In this document: positions 7,581 to 21,029 of the stretch, piece after piece
How positions within the stretch are numbered: the stretch's first letter is position 1
Layout: each line of letters opens with the position of its first letter
Source of the DNA: a virus
DNA: 31,597 nt
Reading direction: 5' to 3' (one strand)
IMG/VR virus record: IMGVR_UViG_3300047357_000068
Location: 1 to 31,597 of that record
Made by a program: the position numbers and the translations under genes
Notes under the pieces: model-generated
What the model saw: the letters and a program-made list of their open reading frames with translations, nothing else
What the model was told of the DNA's origin: nothing
Database searches by the model: none

Positions 7581-8201
7581 CTAGGCCATGAGCCAAGTGT
7601 GGATTTTCTTGCTCTGGTTGCTTCGATCATCCAGCCCGTGATAACCGCCATTCACGCGGCGCGTGATGCGCTTGATCGCGTCATCCGTCACGCCCTCATC
7701 GGCAATCTTAAACAAGCCATTCTTCTCAAAAAACCACAGCGCAGTCTCAAATGCGTAGTCGTCGGCAACCAAGTCTGGGTCAGTCATAACATTCGGCACA
7801 CCCATGTCAGATGCAAATGAGCGGTAGTTGTTGCGCCCGGTAAGCTGGAGAAATCCACGTCCAATGTATAGGCTCGCCTGCGCTTCATTCTCGTTACCCA
7901 TGCGGCCAGCGTAAACCTTGCCAGCAAGCCCGGTTGGGTTTTTGGCGTAAGGTTCAGCATCCTCAACCGTTGGGAAGCGCGACGGCCACACAACCTGTAT
8001 GCGCTCTGGTGAGCTATAGTACAGGCTCTCACGGGTGCGCTTGAAGCCACCACTTTCGTGTGACGCCTGCCCCATCAAGTGCGCGCCGCGTGCCGGGGAC
8101 AGGTTGAAATACTTTGCGATTGCGCGCGCTGTATTCGGCCCAAACTCACCATCAGGCGTTGACCCGATTTTAGTTTGGAGGATAGCCATTGCCTTGCTCA
8201 T
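7581..8201 (-). CDS. Endolysin: GH19 chitinase-like peptidoglycan hydrolase
   Basis: A 206-residue lytic enzyme. The N-terminal 30 residues (LQTKIG, PDGEFGPNTARAI) resemble a short peptidoglycan-binding segment. The catalytic GH19 domain follows, with HESGGF at 48-53 (Glu 49, probable acid), a second Glu at 58 in RTRESLYYSS, and the substrate-cleft signature GRGFLQLTGRNNY at 114-126. These enzymes cut the glycan strands of peptidoglycan at the end of infection. No signal peptide is present, so export needs a holin; membrane protein genes lie just upstream. It overlaps the preceding gene by ATGA. Confidence 0.92.
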   Translation of the reverse strand: MSKAMAILQTKIGSTPDGEFGPNTARAIAKYFNLSPARGAHLMGQASHESGGFKRTRESLYYSSPERIQVVWPSRFPTVEDAEPYAKNPTGLAGKVYAGRMGNENEAQASLYIGRGFLQLTGRNNYRSFASDMGVPNVMTDPDLVADDYAFETALWFFEKNGLFKIADEGVTDDAIKRITRRVNGGYHGLDDRSNQSKKIHTWLMA

Positions 8202-12855: not shown

Positions 12856-13190
12856 TTTGCTAAAAGTCCTTGCATTGCTCCATTCATCGCGCTTCGGTGC
12901 ATGGCACGTTCTGCGCCGGCGCCAAAGTTTCCGCGCTCAAATCTAGGAAACTTTTTGCCAGTGGCTTTTTCGTAATCCAAAGAGAGCATTCTTGCCGTCT
13001 CAATCGGAACCAGCATTGCCTGACCATTTGGCTTAAACCATATAGTTGGGAAGTTAAACGGAATGCCATCGTCATCTGCTTCTGTTGACAAATACTCAGT
13101 TGAAAGCCCACCAAGCCCCACATCTTGAGGCTTATGTTTTTTAGGATCAAATGGCTCAAGGCCAAATGTTTTGCTTAACAACCCTGTCAT
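12852..13190 (-). CDS. Hypothetical protein following the portal gene
   Basis: A 112-residue protein. Residues about 28-85 (LSTEYLSTE, then FNFPTIWFKPNGQ, then YEKATGKKFPRF) match a motif set I have seen in larger phage and polyvalent proteins as a stand-alone domain of unknown function. The ATG shares its A with the portal stop (TAATG), so translation is coupled to the portal. A role in the head or the injected proteins is possible. Confidence 0.7.
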   Translation of the reverse strand: MTGLLSKTFGLEPFDPKKHKPQDVGLGGLSTEYLSTEADDDGIPFNFPTIWFKPNGQAMLVPIETARMLSLDYEKATGKKFPRFERGNFGAGAERAMHRSAMNGAMQGLLAK

Positions 13191-15271
13191 TATTGTTGCA
13201 CCCCTTGGGCCATGCCGCCGATCATGCGCATTTTATCTTGCTCGGCCTGCACGCGGGCCACGTCAACGGCTGTGCCGTATTCGCCGTAAATCTTTGCCGC
13301 ATCAACCAGCAGGTCTTGCGCCATCTGATCTCGCTTGAGGTCGTCATTGGCCGCTGCCTTCTGCATTTCAAGCTGCAACTTGGCCATATCAGTCTGAGCC
13401 TTTGTTTGCGCCTTCATTTGCTCTGCCTGCAAGAACGCAGCGTTTGGATCAGCCGCCTGACCTTGCTGCGCTTGAGCCTGCTGCTGCATCTGCAACATTT
13501 GCATTTCGATCTCAGGTGTAATTGGCGCAAAGTAACGGTCAGCATTGCGGATACCCGAAACAGCCAGCTGATCCGCCAGCGTGTTGCGAATGTTGGTCAG
13601 GCTAACCAAGCCGTTCATCGGCCCGTAGTTTTGGTAAACCATCGTTTGCATTTGCAGCGCTTGGTTTAGGGCTATCGCCTTCTCTTCCTCACGGCCAGTG
13701 CCGAGGCCCACATTTATGCTAACGTCAAAACCTGAATCCCAAACCCGTGGATCAACAGGCACAAACGTACCGTTCATCCGCATCATCTGTTCTTCGTCTA
13801 CGTTCTTGCTCATCAAGCGCAGCATAATGCCAAATAAGTCACGCATGCCGTCGGCAAGGTTGCGAACCATAACCTCAACTTGACCCGCTGCGGCCTGTAC
13901 AGTGGCCTGCACAGCGGCCTTTGTAGTTGACTGCATTGCATCAGGGTCTAGGCCCATTGAGGCTCTGGAAACGCCTGTCTTGCTCTCTACGAGGCCATCT
14001 AGGTATGTCAGCGCGCCAAGTGTCTGGCCTGCGGTGAATGGGACAGAAAGCTCCTGCACAGCGCCAGCTTGACGCATGCGCACGATTGCTCCGATTTCGT
14101 TGTTCAGCACGTCATCAATGTTGACTGCGCCTTCAACAATGCCGAGGCGTGGGTTGTTTGTCATCGCCACGTTGTCAAGGATAGAGCGCAGGACCGATGT
14201 GGCTGCGTCTTGGTCATCCATAACAATCTCGGCCAGTGAGCGGCCATAGAATGTGTGTGGCTCTGGGTCTATTTCAAACTTGGCAAACGGCAGCTCATCG
14301 CATGGCTCAAAGTCAAGCATTTCGTATGCCGTGCCACCGCATGTGATTTTGTGAAGGATGGGTACGCCAGTGCCTTCAACGTCAATGCGCATATAGGCTT
14401 CAGTCACGGCAACATTGCGCATGGATGGGTCTTGCACGTCCTCATCTGACGTATCCATGTCGTAACCGCGCCGCTCATATACCTCGGCTTCAGTCATGTC
14501 TGAGCCGCTCTCAAAGCTGTCCAGATTAAGCACCACGTCTGGGTCGTAGCCCATTGCAATCAAATCGCCAGCGCGCATGTCAGTGCGGTGAGCCACAACG
14601 TAGGCGTCGGCAAGGCTGCGAGCGTCACGGTTAATGAAGAACTCTTCAGGCGGAACGCTCTCAATGCACAGCTCACCCATTTCTTTCTGGCGGCTGAGTT
14701 TAACGCTGTGGATTGGCAGCTCAATCTCCATGCCCATTGGATCAATCTCAATGGTCATTTCAGCCGTATGCTCAAGCACAGTCACGCTGTCATCGTCCAG
14801 CAGGTAGGTATATTCGTCGTCAGACAGATCTGTGAACGTGTAAATCTCGGCCTCTGGATATGTCATCCAGTATGCTTTCACGATGCCTTGCTTTTTAACC
14901 AGCGCATCTTGGAAAGCGTCATTCATCACGCGGTAGCCGTTTAGCCGGGTAAACTCATGGTGCATAAACTCAGTGGCCTGCTCGGCCATTGCCACGTCTT
15001 CTGGGCCGTGAGGCACAAACTCAACGGGCTTGGCTGTGCTGAGGAATATGCGCATTAGGCTTGGCTTCACAGAACGCACGGTATCCCGTACCTTTGTGGC
15101 TACAACCTTGCTGCGGCCTTCCTCGTAACCAAGGTCAACCTCGCCATCGTAGTAGCGCTGGGCTTTGATCCGATCATCGCTGATCTCGCCCTCAACAAAG
15201 TCCACCGCGTCCGATATTGCGTCTTGGACAATGCTTTCGATTTCGCTGCGTGATTTTGGTTTAAGTTCCAT
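13190..15271 (-). CDS. Portal protein (SU10/phiEco32-like)
   Basis: A 693-residue protein, within the usual size for podoviral portals. The N-terminal helical region (SEIESIVQDAISDAVDFVEGE, then QRYYDGEVDLGYEEGRSKVV near 38-57) and RDTVRSVKPSLMRIFLSTAKPVEFVPHGPED match the SU10-like portal family. A Gln/Ala-rich coiled tail (about 590-670) would form the C-terminal barrel. It makes the dodecameric ring through which DNA enters and leaves. AAAGGA precedes the ATG. Confidence 0.93.
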   Translation of the reverse strand: MELKPKSRSEIESIVQDAISDAVDFVEGEISDDRIKAQRYYDGEVDLGYEEGRSKVVATKVRDTVRSVKPSLMRIFLSTAKPVEFVPHGPEDVAMAEQATEFMHHEFTRLNGYRVMNDAFQDALVKKQGIVKAYWMTYPEAEIYTFTDLSDDEYTYLLDDDSVTVLEHTAEMTIEIDPMGMEIELPIHSVKLSRQKEMGELCIESVPPEEFFINRDARSLADAYVVAHRTDMRAGDLIAMGYDPDVVLNLDSFESGSDMTEAEVYERRGYDMDTSDEDVQDPSMRNVAVTEAYMRIDVEGTGVPILHKITCGGTAYEMLDFEPCDELPFAKFEIDPEPHTFYGRSLAEIVMDDQDAATSVLRSILDNVAMTNNPRLGIVEGAVNIDDVLNNEIGAIVRMRQAGAVQELSVPFTAGQTLGALTYLDGLVESKTGVSRASMGLDPDAMQSTTKAAVQATVQAAAGQVEVMVRNLADGMRDLFGIMLRLMSKNVDEEQMMRMNGTFVPVDPRVWDSGFDVSINVGLGTGREEEKAIALNQALQMQTMVYQNYGPMNGLVSLTNIRNTLADQLAVSGIRNADRYFAPITPEIEMQMLQMQQQAQAQQGQAADPNAAFLQAEQMKAQTKAQTDMAKLQLEMQKAAANDDLKRDQMAQDLLVDAAKIYGEYGTAVDVARVQAEQDKMRMIGGMAQGVQQ

Positions 15272-15283
15272 TAATCGTGTCCT

Positions 15284-17230
15284 TTATTCGCTTGTAACCG
15301 CTGGTGTAGTAGCCATCAAGCCAACTTGCGCCAGCATGTCTGTCAGACGTTGCAGCTTTGTTTTGTCTTGCAAGCGTGAAGCCTCGCCCAACAGCTGACG
15401 AACCACTGCGTCACGCTCGGCACCTTGCAACGTGAGTATTTCGCCAATTTCACGGCGGATGTCGCCCGTGCCGTACATGATTTCGTCCATGATTTTATTG
15501 ACAGGTGCAGCTATGGCAGTCTTAACACGCTGCCCAACGCTGGGTGCATTGAAGCTCTCAGGGTCACGAAGGTCTCGCAATGCAGACTGCGCCTCTGTGC
15601 GGAAGCCTGTTTGCGAACCAGCAAGAACGTCAGATGAGGTTTTGGCAAACTCTTTTTCAGCAAGCAAGCGCTGGGTAATGGCCGCCGCACTTTCGTCGCC
15701 AACAAGCATCCTGAGCTTCTCAGCGTTCCAGCTTTTGCCAAACTCACCCCAAGCGGCGGCTGCATCGTTGCGAGACGTTCCCATAAGGGAGCCAATGTAG
15801 TCCCGTGCGCCCTTCTGGAAGGCAGCTCGTTCCATGTCAGACATGCCTGCAAGTTTTGCTTCCAATTCACGCGGAGACAATGCAGATGTTTTGCCGCCAG
15901 TAAATACCTTTTCGCCGTCCTCAACAGCGCGCTGGATAGCGGAAGCCTCAGAGTATCCGGACCGAGCCGCTGCGTAACTTGGCAGCTCGTCCAGCTTATC
16001 GTCAATTTTATGCAAGAATGGCTTGAGGTTTACAGCAACGCTCCCACCCTCCCTGAATATAACGTCGCTCAACGCTGATCTGACGTTGTGCAGCTTCTCG
16101 GCGCTAACGTCGCCTTTTGTGCCTAAATCTTTCAACACAGCATTCATTTGAGAGCGAACCGAGCGTGAAGCATCCTTGCCGTACAAAACCAGTGCGCTGC
16201 GCAGTGTGTTTACATCAAACATTTTATCGCTTTGAGTGGCAGCCTCATACATTGGGCCAAGCACGCCAGACTTGCGCTCTTGCTGAGCCAATGTTTCCTC
16301 AAACCCTACGTTTGGCCGGTCAATGCGCTGCGTCATAACATCTTCAACACGCTGACCTGCGCCTGCACCGCGAGCGCCTATTTCGCGGGTCAAAACCTCT
16401 TGACCTTGGCCGGGGATGGTCGCCAAGCCCTGAGCTAATGTGCGTGGGCGGCCCGGCACGTCGGCCAGCATAGCTTCTGGCCCAAGGCTTCTGAGATATG
16501 ACTGAATATCCTGAGCTGTCGCTTGAGGGCCAGACAGTTGACCAGCCACCCTGCGTGATGCTGCGCCACTGTAGCCACCGACACCGCGTCTGGTTAACTC
16601 CTGCGCGCCGCGTGTAGCTGCGCCAGCCACTCGACCAGCTACAGGTGAAACCATGCCGATTGTGCCGCCGACCGCAGTGGACAGAGGGTCAATTTCTGAA
16701 ACTCTTTCAGTGAAGCCGCCTTCGCCGCGACCGAATTGTGGCAGAGCTGTGGCCGCTGCGCCAACGCCGCCAGACGTGGTTATTTGGCCTAACACGGGTA
16801 ACTTTGATCCAGCTTTGAACGCCACCCCTCCGGGGGCAACCATGCTCGTGACTGCGCCAGAGGTTTGGCCTCTAGCGTATTGCTCGGGGGCTAGAAGCTG
16901 CAATGCTTCGTCAATCTGGCGCTGAAGGTCGCGGTACTTCGCGTAAGCTGCCTTTGCGCCCTCCATGTCGCCTGACTTCAAAAGCTCATTGGCAAAGTTG
17001 TAAGCGCCGCGAGCCTCGTCGTTTAAATTCATCATCGCGCCAGCTGTAAAGCCGCCGTATGTGGCACGAGTTTCAAGCTCGGCTTGCTTGGCGGGCTTCC
17101 GCTTCTCACGGGCGCGGTCCAATGCAGCCTGCTCACTTGCTGTGATTGTGCCGTTAGCCTCTAGTTTCTCCAAAACCTTGATGGCTTGAAGGATTTGTGA
17201 GGACTCAGCCGATGTCATCGTTTCCGCCAT
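15284..17230 (-). CDS. Putative internal virion/ejection protein
   Basis: A 648-residue, mostly helical protein with Ala, Gly and Glu-rich composition. A Gly/Ala/Val-rich, weakly hydrophobic stretch lies at about 130-210 (GGVAFKAGSK..., TSGGVGAAATALPQ, TAVGGTIGMVSPVAGRVAG), the rest being amphipathic helices. It precedes the portal and follows the lysozyme-domain gene, where podoviruses keep proteins ejected into the cell with the DNA. No catalytic motif was recognised. AAGGAG lies before the ATG. The role is inferred from size, composition and order. Confidence 0.75.
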   Translation of the reverse strand: MAETMTSAESSQILQAIKVLEKLEANGTITASEQAALDRAREKRKPAKQAELETRATYGGFTAGAMMNLNDEARGAYNFANELLKSGDMEGAKAAYAKYRDLQRQIDEALQLLAPEQYARGQTSGAVTSMVAPGGVAFKAGSKLPVLGQITTSGGVGAAATALPQFGRGEGGFTERVSEIDPLSTAVGGTIGMVSPVAGRVAGAATRGAQELTRRGVGGYSGAASRRVAGQLSGPQATAQDIQSYLRSLGPEAMLADVPGRPRTLAQGLATIPGQGQEVLTREIGARGAGAGQRVEDVMTQRIDRPNVGFEETLAQQERKSGVLGPMYEAATQSDKMFDVNTLRSALVLYGKDASRSVRSQMNAVLKDLGTKGDVSAEKLHNVRSALSDVIFREGGSVAVNLKPFLHKIDDKLDELPSYAAARSGYSEASAIQRAVEDGEKVFTGGKTSALSPRELEAKLAGMSDMERAAFQKGARDYIGSLMGTSRNDAAAAWGEFGKSWNAEKLRMLVGDESAAAITQRLLAEKEFAKTSSDVLAGSQTGFRTEAQSALRDLRDPESFNAPSVGQRVKTAIAAPVNKIMDEIMYGTGDIRREIGEILTLQGAERDAVVRQLLGEASRLQDKTKLQRLTDMLAQVGLMATTPAVTSE

Positions 17231-17240
17231 GATCGGCTCC

Positions 17241-18851
17241 TTACTTAATTGCTTCTAGAAGTTTTCTAGCCGCTTCGCGCTCTGCGTCGCCAGTGGGCGC
17301 TGGGCCTACTGGCGCCCTAAACGCTGCAAACGGGTCTGCGCGGTTATTCAGCAGCTCAAATGCTTCAGGCTGCGTGATGTCTTTGTTACGCAAGCGCTGC
17401 ACAATTCTAGCACCTTCTGCATCATACTCAGCAAGCCCGCGCATAGTGTTGATGATGATTTGGTTGCCGCCGGGAGAGTTAATTATGCGAGGCAATGATT
17501 GCTTGAAAAGTTCCAAGTCGGCGTCGGACATCGGACCAGATCCCGGAGGACGCTGCGCTGGGACAAGGGCGTTTATAAGTGCCGCTGCCGCTTGAATGTC
17601 ATCAAGTCCTTCAGTTTGGATGCCAAAGTTACCTGCAAACTGTTGTATGTTTGCGCCCATGCCGCTGTCAATATTGCTTAACAATGCCTCAAGTCGATTG
17701 ATCTGTGCGAGGCTTCTGGTCGCCGTTGAGCCAACTTTCGCAACATCAGCCAGAGCCGCTGCGTCCAGTTTTGCAAACTCTTCTTCAAATCTTTTCTCGC
17801 CAGCGGCCTCAATGGTTGTAGAGATATTTGGGGCAGAAGCCTTTTGAAGCGCAGTTTTATACTCAAGGAATGTTCCCTTGAACCCTTGGTTAACGGCTTG
17901 CTGATATTCCTTGATGCCGGCAGTTCTGTCATCCTTCGGCGTGGCAAGCAACTGGCCGGCCGCATCGGTTGGAGAAATCATGCCGCGCTCAACCATGTCA
18001 GCCAAGTCATCACGCTTCCTGAGCCGCAACATCTCAATGGTTTTATTTCGGTTGCTTGCCGCAATCCGCTGCGCACCAGCCTTACGAATAGCCTCGCCAC
18101 CGCCGCGCAGTTCCGGCAAAATGAGGGGATCAAGCGCAGCCGCAAAAGTCTGAAACCCTGTCAGCCCAGTATTCGGGTCAACGGCTGTTGCTGCGTCTTT
18201 CAGTGTTGACAGAAGCCCACGCATACCGCCCTGCTGCTGCTGCGCTGCCTGACCCATGTTGGGTGCGTTGTAAGTCTGCTCGCCGCCCATCATGTATGGA
18301 GCTTTGTTGGAAATGGCCATGTCTTGACCCCCTTGATTGCTTGTAAGTAAACCGCCCTTGGCAGTGGTCGCTGGCAGTGATGTAATGTCATCCACGTCAA
18401 CGCCTGCAAAGTTCGCCAAATCATTCATACGGCTGCCACGCCACTGCGCAATGCCATATGTGCCTTTACCGCCAGCAAGTGTGTTGCGAGCATCTGGGTT
18501 CATATCCTCATAGCTCTCAGCCATCAGGCGTCCAGTGATGCCAGCGGCCTGCTGCGGTGTGAGACCCTTTTCAGTCAGGTATCCGTAAGCAAACTTTGCG
18601 TTTGGAGAAATGACGCCGGGGTTGGATGTACCATCGTGCATTGCCGCGTAAACGCTGCTGGCATAGTTGCGAGCCTTCTCGTCCCCTGCGCCACCTGAGC
18701 GCTCATAGTATTTATCCCACAGCGTTGCATAGTCTTCTGGCGTTGAGGCGTTGGCCGCACGGAACTTCTCAAAGCCAGACTTTTCCTTTCCCTGCACTTC
18801 ATTCCAGAGAAAGTCCATTTGCTTTGCGAGAGGGATAAAACCTTTTGGCAT
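17241..18851 (-). CDS. Ejection protein with a circularly permuted tail-lysozyme domain
   Basis: A 536-residue protein. Residues 8-71 (AKQMDFLWNEVQG, then KYYERSGG) match the second half of the phage tail-lysozyme family (PF18013), normally after the first half. Residues 84-152 (YLTEKGLTPQQAAGITGRLMAESY, then GTYGIAQWRGSRMNDL) match the first half, including the probable catalytic Glu 112. The order is thus reversed. From about 180 on, the protein is a long helical virion-type region (coiled segments 270-330 and 350-420). It probably opens the peptidoglycan at the start of infection. ATG overlaps the upstream stop (TAATG), so the permuted order is the true N-terminus. Confidence 0.85.
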   Translation of the reverse strand: MPKGFIPLAKQMDFLWNEVQGKEKSGFEKFRAANASTPEDYATLWDKYYERSGGAGDEKARNYASSVYAAMHDGTSNPGVISPNAKFAYGYLTEKGLTPQQAAGITGRLMAESYEDMNPDARNTLAGGKGTYGIAQWRGSRMNDLANFAGVDVDDITSLPATTAKGGLLTSNQGGQDMAISNKAPYMMGGEQTYNAPNMGQAAQQQQGGMRGLLSTLKDAATAVDPNTGLTGFQTFAAALDPLILPELRGGGEAIRKAGAQRIAASNRNKTIEMLRLRKRDDLADMVERGMISPTDAAGQLLATPKDDRTAGIKEYQQAVNQGFKGTFLEYKTALQKASAPNISTTIEAAGEKRFEEEFAKLDAAALADVAKVGSTATRSLAQINRLEALLSNIDSGMGANIQQFAGNFGIQTEGLDDIQAAAALINALVPAQRPPGSGPMSDADLELFKQSLPRIINSPGGNQIIINTMRGLAEYDAEGARIVQRLRNKDITQPEAFELLNNRADPFAAFRAPVGPAPTGDAEREAARKLLEAIK

Positions 18852-19558
18852 TACATCAGGCCCGCGCCAAGCTGCAAGTAATTAAACAGGCCGGGTTGCA
18901 TGGAACTTGTTGTACTTTGCGGCGCTGGCGTAACCCCAAGAGCAGCCAGAGGTGCCTGCAATGCCTGCGTTGGTGCGCCTGTGTAGCCAGCGTATTGGCC
19001 TTTGGCTGCATCAATTAGCGCCTGCTGAATACCTTGCTGCAAGAGGCCTTGCTGCGCTTGCTGCTGCTGGATTGTTTGGCCTGTCTGAAACGCTTGCTGT
19101 CCAAGTCCACCGAGCTGGGACGCGGCACCGAGGCGAGCCTGACGGTCGGCCATCGCGGCCTGCAATGCCTGGCTGTAGTTTTGCTGACGTTGCTGCGCTG
19201 CCATATCGCCAGCCATGCGACCATATTCGCCAGCCATGACACCTTCAGCAACACCCTGACGCGACCCGCCAAATGCTCTGGCAGCAGTAGCCTGCGCGCC
19301 AAGCTGGTTCTGCGCCATTTCTTGCTGACGCGCAATGTCCTGCTGAGTGCGGTCAATTACTGCGCTGGTGTATGGGTTAGCATATGCGCCGACATTTAGC
19401 GGGCCTTGCATAGCTTGTTGAGTGCCTTGCATCGCTTGTTGCAATCCACCTGCCGCAGCTTGGTTTACGTTAAAACCCGGCTGAGGTTGAACCGATTGCA
19501 ACGCTCCAGTTTGAGGTTGTATTGATTGTACTGCTGCTGGTTGTGCTGCGCCTGCCAT
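18851..19558 (-). CDS. Gln/Ala-rich virion (ejection-type) protein
   Basis: A 235-residue, low-complexity protein, very rich in Gln, Ala and Gly. A central segment (ANPYTSAVIDRTQQDIARQQ, then LGAQATAARAFGGSRQGVAEG) is the recognisable signature of a coil-forming protein found in marine podoviruses. The Gln-rich ends probably make long helices. It follows the 489-residue gene by one base and overlaps the lysozyme gene. An internal or ejected role is likely; no enzyme motif is present. Confidence 0.7.
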   Translation of the reverse strand: MAGAAQPAAVQSIQPQTGALQSVQPQPGFNVNQAAAGGLQQAMQGTQQAMQGPLNVGAYANPYTSAVIDRTQQDIARQQEMAQNQLGAQATAARAFGGSRQGVAEGVMAGEYGRMAGDMAAQQRQQNYSQALQAAMADRQARLGAASQLGGLGQQAFQTGQTIQQQQAQQGLLQQGIQQALIDAAKGQYAGYTGAPTQALQAPLAALGVTPAPQSTTSSMQPGLFNYLQLGAGLM

Positions 19559-19559
19559 T

Positions 19560-21029
19560 TTATGAGTCCTTCTTAACTAAGCCAACCGCAAAGAATTGGG
19601 CTGTGCGCGCTGCAAAGTGAATAGCGCCTTTAACTGTACGTTTCTTACCGGAGGCAAATGCAATGTAATCACGGAACTCTTGGTAATGCTCGTGCGCCTT
19701 GCCTTGCTCGATTTTACTGCGGCCAAGGTGACGATAGCCTCTGCGGATTGCCTCGCCCCACCACTTGCCGTGCAATACATTCATGCACCAAACAACAGCT
19801 TCGCGCTTGGCCGATGGTGAAAACGCGCCTGAGCTGACTGCGTGTGTGGCGACTACGCAACCACCCTTGTCGCCAGTATCCGCACCGCCAGCCGCGTCAT
19901 CCCTCAATATAGGTCTTATCGAGGTTACGGGGGCGGCAGCAGTTGCGGCGGCCATCATGTCACGGTGAGCCGTACTGTCATTGTCCTGACTCACAGCGGG
20001 GGCCGCAACATAAGAACCTGTTGACGGTTGATATGTCATGCCCGGAGGTGCGCTGGCCTGCATCTCGGCAACAGTCGGGGTTTCAATCGGGTTGTTTGCT
20101 CCACCCACGTTGTATGAGGGGCCGAGTAGAATGTTACCAGCAAGCGTATTGCTGGCAAGTCCAGTGCCGAACTCGGTCAAATCATTCATTATTTGAGTGC
20201 CAGTGCCAGCAGTGGATGTGTCTGTTATGCCTGCTGCTGGATCAGTTATGTAGGCTGACGCTTGCTCACCGCCAGTAGGCTGACCGGGTACTATGGTTCC
20301 ACGCCCTCCGGCTACTGAAGGGCCAAGGTCGTAGCCAAGGTCAGTTGTTGTCCCATCACTATTATACATTATAGCCGGGCCGCCCTCTGTCATTGGGCTT
20401 GAATCGGGGTACTGACGTATGTCTGGGAAAGTAGAGGGTGTATTGTCAACATAACCGGGTGGTGTTTGAGTTGTGGGAGGTACGATAGTGTAAGGAGCCT
20501 CGTTTCCTTGAAAGTCTGTAGAAGTGTAATCTCCAGCCTGCGCAATGGCCAAGTCATTGGCTTGCTGCGCGGCAACCTGATCTGCCATTGTGCCATAACT
20601 GGTATAATCAATTGGAGCAAAGTTGCCAGCAGCAGCGCCGCCTGCGTATGGGTCAATAAAGAAGCTGTCGATGTAAGCCTTCTGGCCGGGACGACGCTCG
20701 CCCAACGTCTGCAATGATTCCTCATAGATTGGCGCGGCAGAGTAACCCTGCACGCCGCCAGCGTATGTCGTTGGCTCGGGCATGCCGCCCATAATGTCTT
20801 GCTGGGACATGCCACCACCCGGCACGCCAAAGGCACTTGCTGTCTGAGCGGTGCCTTGAAGCGCAGCCTGCTGCATTGGTGTGAGCGCAGCAACGTCTGG
20901 ACCGTAATACGGCGTATAGCCAATCTGCGAAATGCGCTCGGCTTTGTTTAGGTTGCGCTGTGCAGCGGCCTCAATGTATTCTGGGATTGTAACCGATGAG
21001 GTTGTTGATCCACCTTTTCCGCCAGACAT
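19560..21029 (-). CDS. Virion protein with a conserved Cys/Trp C-terminal domain
   Basis: A 489-residue protein. The first 390 residues are Gly, Ser, Thr and Pro-rich and look disordered or fibrous apart from a helical N-terminal part (IPEYIEAAAQRNLNKAERI, 15-33). The last 99 residues form a distinct basic, aromatic domain beginning GGCVVATHAV (Cys 391) and containing WCMNVLHGKWWGEAIRRGYRHLG, then HYQEFRDYIAF. It has the look of a compact Cys-led domain seen at the C-terminus of phage structural proteins. It lies in the ejection-protein gene group. Function is unknown. Confidence 0.65.
   Translation of the reverse strand: MSGGKGGSTTSSVTIPEYIEAAAQRNLNKAERISQIGYTPYYGPDVAALTPMQQAALQGTAQTASAFGVPGGGMSQQDIMGGMPEPTTYAGGVQGYSAAPIYEESLQTLGERRPGQKAYIDSFFIDPYAGGAAAGNFAPIDYTSYGTMADQVAAQQANDLAIAQAGDYTSTDFQGNEAPYTIVPPTTQTPPGYVDNTPSTFPDIRQYPDSSPMTEGGPAIMYNSDGTTTDLGYDLGPSVAGGRGTIVPGQPTGGEQASAYITDPAAGITDTSTAGTGTQIMNDLTEFGTGLASNTLAGNILLGPSYNVGGANNPIETPTVAEMQASAPPGMTYQPSTGSYVAAPAVSQDNDSTAHRDMMAAATAAAPVTSIRPILRDDAAGGADTGDKGGCVVATHAVSSGAFSPSAKREAVVWCMNVLHGKWWGEAIRRGYRHLGRSKIEQGKAHEHYQEFRDYIAFASGKKRTVKGAIHFAARTAQFFAVGLVKKDS

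Follow-up and report, generated by a model that had tools for sequence, protein, structure and literature searches.

The closest described relative of the domain studied here is Phage_lysozyme2 (PF18013), the family of the N-terminal domain of phi29 gp13 (PDB 3csr, 3ct5), whose Glu45 has been suggested as the catalytic residue (PMC10394673). A wall hydrolase also occupies the N-terminus of T7 gp16, a transglycosylase in that case, and of other ejection proteins, which exchange such enzyme modules between phages, with T7 gp16 as the precedent (PMC8954989). Lysozymes with moved termini have been described as well (e.g., 1P5C), but the permutants mentioned in PMC2395249 are engineered: they were made in the laboratory from T4 lysozyme, which belongs to another lysozyme family. 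In the full-text literature, most subscription papers being outside this search, no natural circular permutation of a lysozyme-fold enzyme turned up, and priority is therefore uncertain.

We analysed a 31.6-kb virus record at its full length (31,597 nucleotides, hereafter the window), which carries terminase, portal, scaffold, major head protein, tail fibre and endolysin genes. One of its genes encodes a protein in which the two halves of PF18013 occur in swapped order (Table 1). Pfam found two PF18013 stretches in the whole 536-aa protein (4.2e-20), with a score of 72.8 bits versus a curated cut-off of 28.2, and each half alone also scored above the cut-off. The match is not collinear with positions 1-140 of the profile: positions 75-140 precede positions 2-67, hence the window domain is a permuted homologue and not an ordinary member of the family. 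A genome-level search of the whole record gave the reversed order again (18639-18830 matched profile 75-140, and 18393-18602 matched profile 2-72). The original prediction had read this arrangement as a virion lysozyme that underwent a natural circular permutation and is fused to an ejection protein. Its coordinates, residue numbers and TAATG overlap agree with the ORF list and the sequence, and both halves proved PF18013-like when scored separately, a check set beforehand. The swapped order is thus confirmed, and its reading as a permutation is well supported.

Table 1. Features of the window discussed in the text.
Feature	Position	Strand	Description	Basis
Predicted virion protein, 536 aa	17241..18851	(-)	permuted lysozyme (1-~157), low-complexity linker and ejection-protein tail	ORF, translation, Pfam, orthologues
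PF18013 C-half, N-terminal here	18639..18830	(-)	residues 8-71 = profile 75-140; helices 4-7	hmmscan alone 6.1e-8
New linker	18603..18638	(-)	residues 72-83, from canonical C-terminus to canonical N-terminus	low-pLDDT block; relatives 5-11 residues
PF18013 N-half, second here	18399..18602	(-)	residues 84-151 = profile 2-67; helices 1-3 and beta hairpin	hmmscan alone 9.3e-16
Presumed catalytic Glu112	18516..18518	(-)	aligned with phi29 gp13 Glu45; conserved	alignment to 3csr
Linker and ejection-protein tail	17244..18398	(-)	residues 152-536; common to proteins with other N-terminal enzymes	
Upstream ejection-protein gene, 235 aa	18851..19558	(-)		phrog_4287 4e-12; BLASTP to L250 residues 61-275
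Upstream ejection-protein gene, 489 aa	19560..21029	(-)		phrog_4287 5e-4; weak BLASTP to L250 residues 2-60, E 0.005
Downstream virion-cluster protein	15284..17230	(-)		phrog_5880
Portal protein (SU10/P22-like)	13190..15271	(-)		PF23899 1.5e-189
Separate endolysin gene	7581..8201	(-)		phrog_181 2.8e-46

The first ~157 residues are, very probably, a natural circular permutant of PF18013 that forms one fold, serves as a virion-borne wall cutter at ejection, and has probably a single origin followed by spread. The chain would begin between canonical helices 3 and 4 and pass through helices 4-7, after which the short new linker would bridge the old termini. Helices 1-3, home to the presumed catalytic Glu112 and to the substrate loop YGIAQW, would then come last, and helix 3, not helix 7, would link the domain to the ejection-protein tail. 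The analogy with T7 gp16 and phi29 gp13 suggests that the enzyme is carried in the virion and makes local cuts in the glycan strands of peptidoglycan during DNA ejection. Compared with the gp13 domain, both halves are homologous, Glu112 aligns with Glu45 and the predicted helix set is the same, whereas the halves are reversed and the new termini lie between helices 3 and 4.

Judged from structure prediction, the permuted chain most likely forms a single lysozyme-like domain. AlphaFold2, given 30 sequences that were all permuted, returned one confident domain (pLDDT 89.7, pTM 0.88) with helices at residues 8-20, 24-32, 38-50, 57-71, 83-94 and 99-113, a beta region, and a last helix at 139-149; this agrees with the single compact unit expected in the original prediction. 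The canonical control L180, modelled from 30 canonical sequences (pLDDT 95.5, pTM 0.90), has helices at 14-23 and 28-42, a beta region, and helices at 63-75, 83-94, 99-106, 111-123 and 130-142, and matched phi29 gp13 (3csr) at full length over 157 columns (TM 0.75, E 5e-6). The helix order of the permuted model, 4-5-6-7-1-2-3, is a cyclic rotation of this control. An order-dependent search of the PDB with the permuted model gave no match at E<=1e-3, which is expected from the different chain order and is by itself no proof of it. The matches in BFVD to proteins named tail lysozyme mostly covered about half of the permuted model.

Residues Glu112, Asn123, Gln136 and Trp137 were invariant in the 30 permuted sequences, whose identity goes down to 32%, and the A, Q and W of the YGIAQW loop (GxxQW) were kept in every one of them. 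Glu112 lies at the end of the helix 99-113 in the model, as the canonical catalytic Glu does at the end of helix 2. In ten close pairs, dN was far below dS over the domain; within each half it was well below dS in most pairs, one pair having too few changes. The permuted domains are under purifying selection. The protein is most likely, by analogy, a muramidase or lytic transglycosylase of the virion that opens peptidoglycan as the DNA is ejected; we infer both its cleavage chemistry and its location in the virion.

The permuted lysozyme gene lies between two phrog_4287-related ejection-protein genes and a phrog_5880 gene, which is followed by the portal gene. The enzyme lies in this ejection/portal cluster and not in a lysis cassette, and we rejected it as the lysis endolysin, for which the window has its own gene at 7581-8201. 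Like T7 gp16, the protein would have a wall hydrolase at the N-terminus of a putative virion ejection protein, to which the position of the domain, the phrog_4287 synteny and a fusion found in some relatives (family C, see below) point; its enzyme belongs to another family and is permuted. The fusion to an ejection protein, also part of the original prediction, was supported: the tail is probably homologous to known ejection proteins, as judged from synteny, the family C fusion and a Rhizobium phage relative, and not from a named family.

This relative, EVC14_015 of Rhizobium phage RHph_I3_18 (MN988542), is the only one from a cultured phage for the window tail (~residues 330-536). Its tail is 39% identical and it has a PF18013 enzyme in the same protein, but in canonical order (residues 128-252 matching profile 12-136) and with ~125 residues ahead of the enzyme. 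Among the metagenomic relatives of the tail, L037-L042 bear an SLT transglycosylase (Pfam on L037, 9e-25), L093 has by eye a PF18013-like segment in normal order, L074 an apparent M15-type peptidase, also by eye, and some have no obvious enzyme. In one tail family (L037-L042, L074, L093, L051:12351-14330), the N-terminal wall enzyme is thus of at least three unrelated kinds (SLT, PF18013, apparent M15) or is lacking. This variety is the module exchange described in PMC8954989. In orthologues, canonical PF18013, SLT or another enzyme appears to do the same job. Five further tail relatives (L082, L083, L084, L087, L088) show by eye a diverged lysozyme-like segment, apparently in normal order (AAVAATGKAESGWSP...GGVMSWR).

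Searches of IMG/VR found permuted domains in four virion-protein contexts, in aquatic phages. Family A has the domain at the N-terminus of window-like proteins of ~500-570 aa, and in the shorter L262. Family B is a related, diverged N-terminal group (L240, L242, L245, L285, L290, L295), and L290 has a phrog_4287 gene immediately upstream. In L290 (L290:5983-7599), residues 356-493 of the ejection-protein tail match phrog_26675, a family with the label endolysin; since this match is outside the lysozyme domain, the label probably stems from an attached enzyme. In family C, the domain is inside ejection-protein fusions of 1,100-1,480 aa (L250-L261). Residues 61-275 of L250 match the 235-aa upstream gene of the window and residues 681-837 the permuted lysozyme, so that separate genes of the window make up a single chain in L250; the 489-aa upstream gene corresponds, by a weak match, to the N-terminal part of this fusion (residues 2-60). 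This 1,307-aa protein (L250:4000-7920) fuses proteins that are separate at 17241-21029 of the window; its ejection part and its lysozyme are parted by a chaperone-like segment of the Peptidase_S74 family (PF13884, residues 277-327). Family D has the domain at the N-terminus of structural proteins of 889-1,088 aa (L246, L334-L336), adjoining in L334 the baseplate hub and wedge genes of a contractile-tail baseplate cluster. The swapped order was upheld by half-by-half Pfam tests in representatives of families B, C and D; its conservation in homologues was another check proposed in advance. The prediction had also tied the permutation to the gene start, and this did not hold: the domain of family C lies ~500-900 residues into the chain, and contexts C and D make the swapped order independent of a gene start or a short tail.

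Half-profiles run on all ORFs of the fetched loci identified at least 53 distinct permuted versus at least 108 distinct canonical domain sequences, a ratio that is no population frequency; these loci are biased toward relatives of the window. All recovered permuted sequences are cut at the same point, with a linker of 5-11 residues, and no protein of the fetched loci had a C-half on both sides of the N-half. Two contig scans and 385 alphaproteobacterial genomes gave no permuted copies in bacteria, only canonical or half matches; the full-length matches in the 385 genomes were all canonical (6/6). The individually inspected tblastn matches in cultured phages included no permuted copy, all being canonical, and family D had no match in cultured phages.

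The standard path to a circular permutation is a duplication after which the outer halves are lost. The permutation would have arisen once in this way, from a tandem duplication, and the permuted domain would later have spread into several virion proteins. In a tree of the joined halves (143 columns), families A, B and C formed one clade (SH-aLRT 99), and one origin including family D was not rejected (p-AU 0.64); a single origin of all permuted domains, D included, is possible. The segment after helix 3 at residues ~148-160 of the window protein (18372-18410; FAGVDVDDITSLP) is similar to the canonical linker between helices 3 and 4 (FAxxxGxxxDDVNTQL), and is possibly a relic of the duplication.

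Three other explanations can account for swapped halves. A wrong start, a frameshift or an assembly error might conceal a canonical domain, but we give this almost no credence: we found no support for it, and dozens of independent contigs with the identical order refute it. The ATG of the gene and the stop codon of the one upstream overlap in TAATG, and an in-frame stop ~11 codons 5' of this ATG rules out an in-frame upstream N-half; a real gene start, as originally proposed, is supported. The tested genes upstream and downstream had no PF18013 match in Pfam, and no fetched protein had an extra complete canonical domain, which dismisses a missed upstream half, a frameshift or a complete domain elsewhere. 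The halves might instead be remnants of a tandem duplication, too decayed to make up an enzyme. Duplication with loss of the outer halves is indeed the likely origin, yet no result points to decay, and we regard it as very unlikely given the low dN relative to dS in both halves in most comparisons, the invariant catalytic and core residues, the confident predicted fold, and the retention of an enzyme at this place in several orthologues.

It is harder to set aside a domain-swapped ring or fibre, in which the C-half of one subunit would complete the N-half of its neighbour and so help to assemble the ejection complex. Ejection proteins form multimers (PMC8954989), the short linker is compatible with swapping, and a swapped dimer or ring would leave an identical sequence signal. 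Still, AlphaFold2 confidently predicts a monomer, the linker lengths vary, and family D places the domain in a different virion protein; we thus consider swapping improbable. The adaptation for unfolding and passing through the tail, which the original prediction had suggested, gains no support from family D, whose domain is in a contractile-tail baseplate cluster, or from the orthologues with other enzymes. The permutation could have been selected rather than neutral, since termini at the helix 3/4 junction would alter the tether site and the order of threading and refolding, adapting a virion lysozyme to ejection or assembly, but this is a tentative proposal that we find rather doubtful.

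Annotation and fold searches that depend on chain order miss the permuted domain or call half a domain. With the permuted enzyme spread over no fewer than four virion-protein contexts and a canonical homologue in a cultured phage, natural enzymes of both orders, which appear to do the same job, can be compared directly in their stability, unfolding force and infection.
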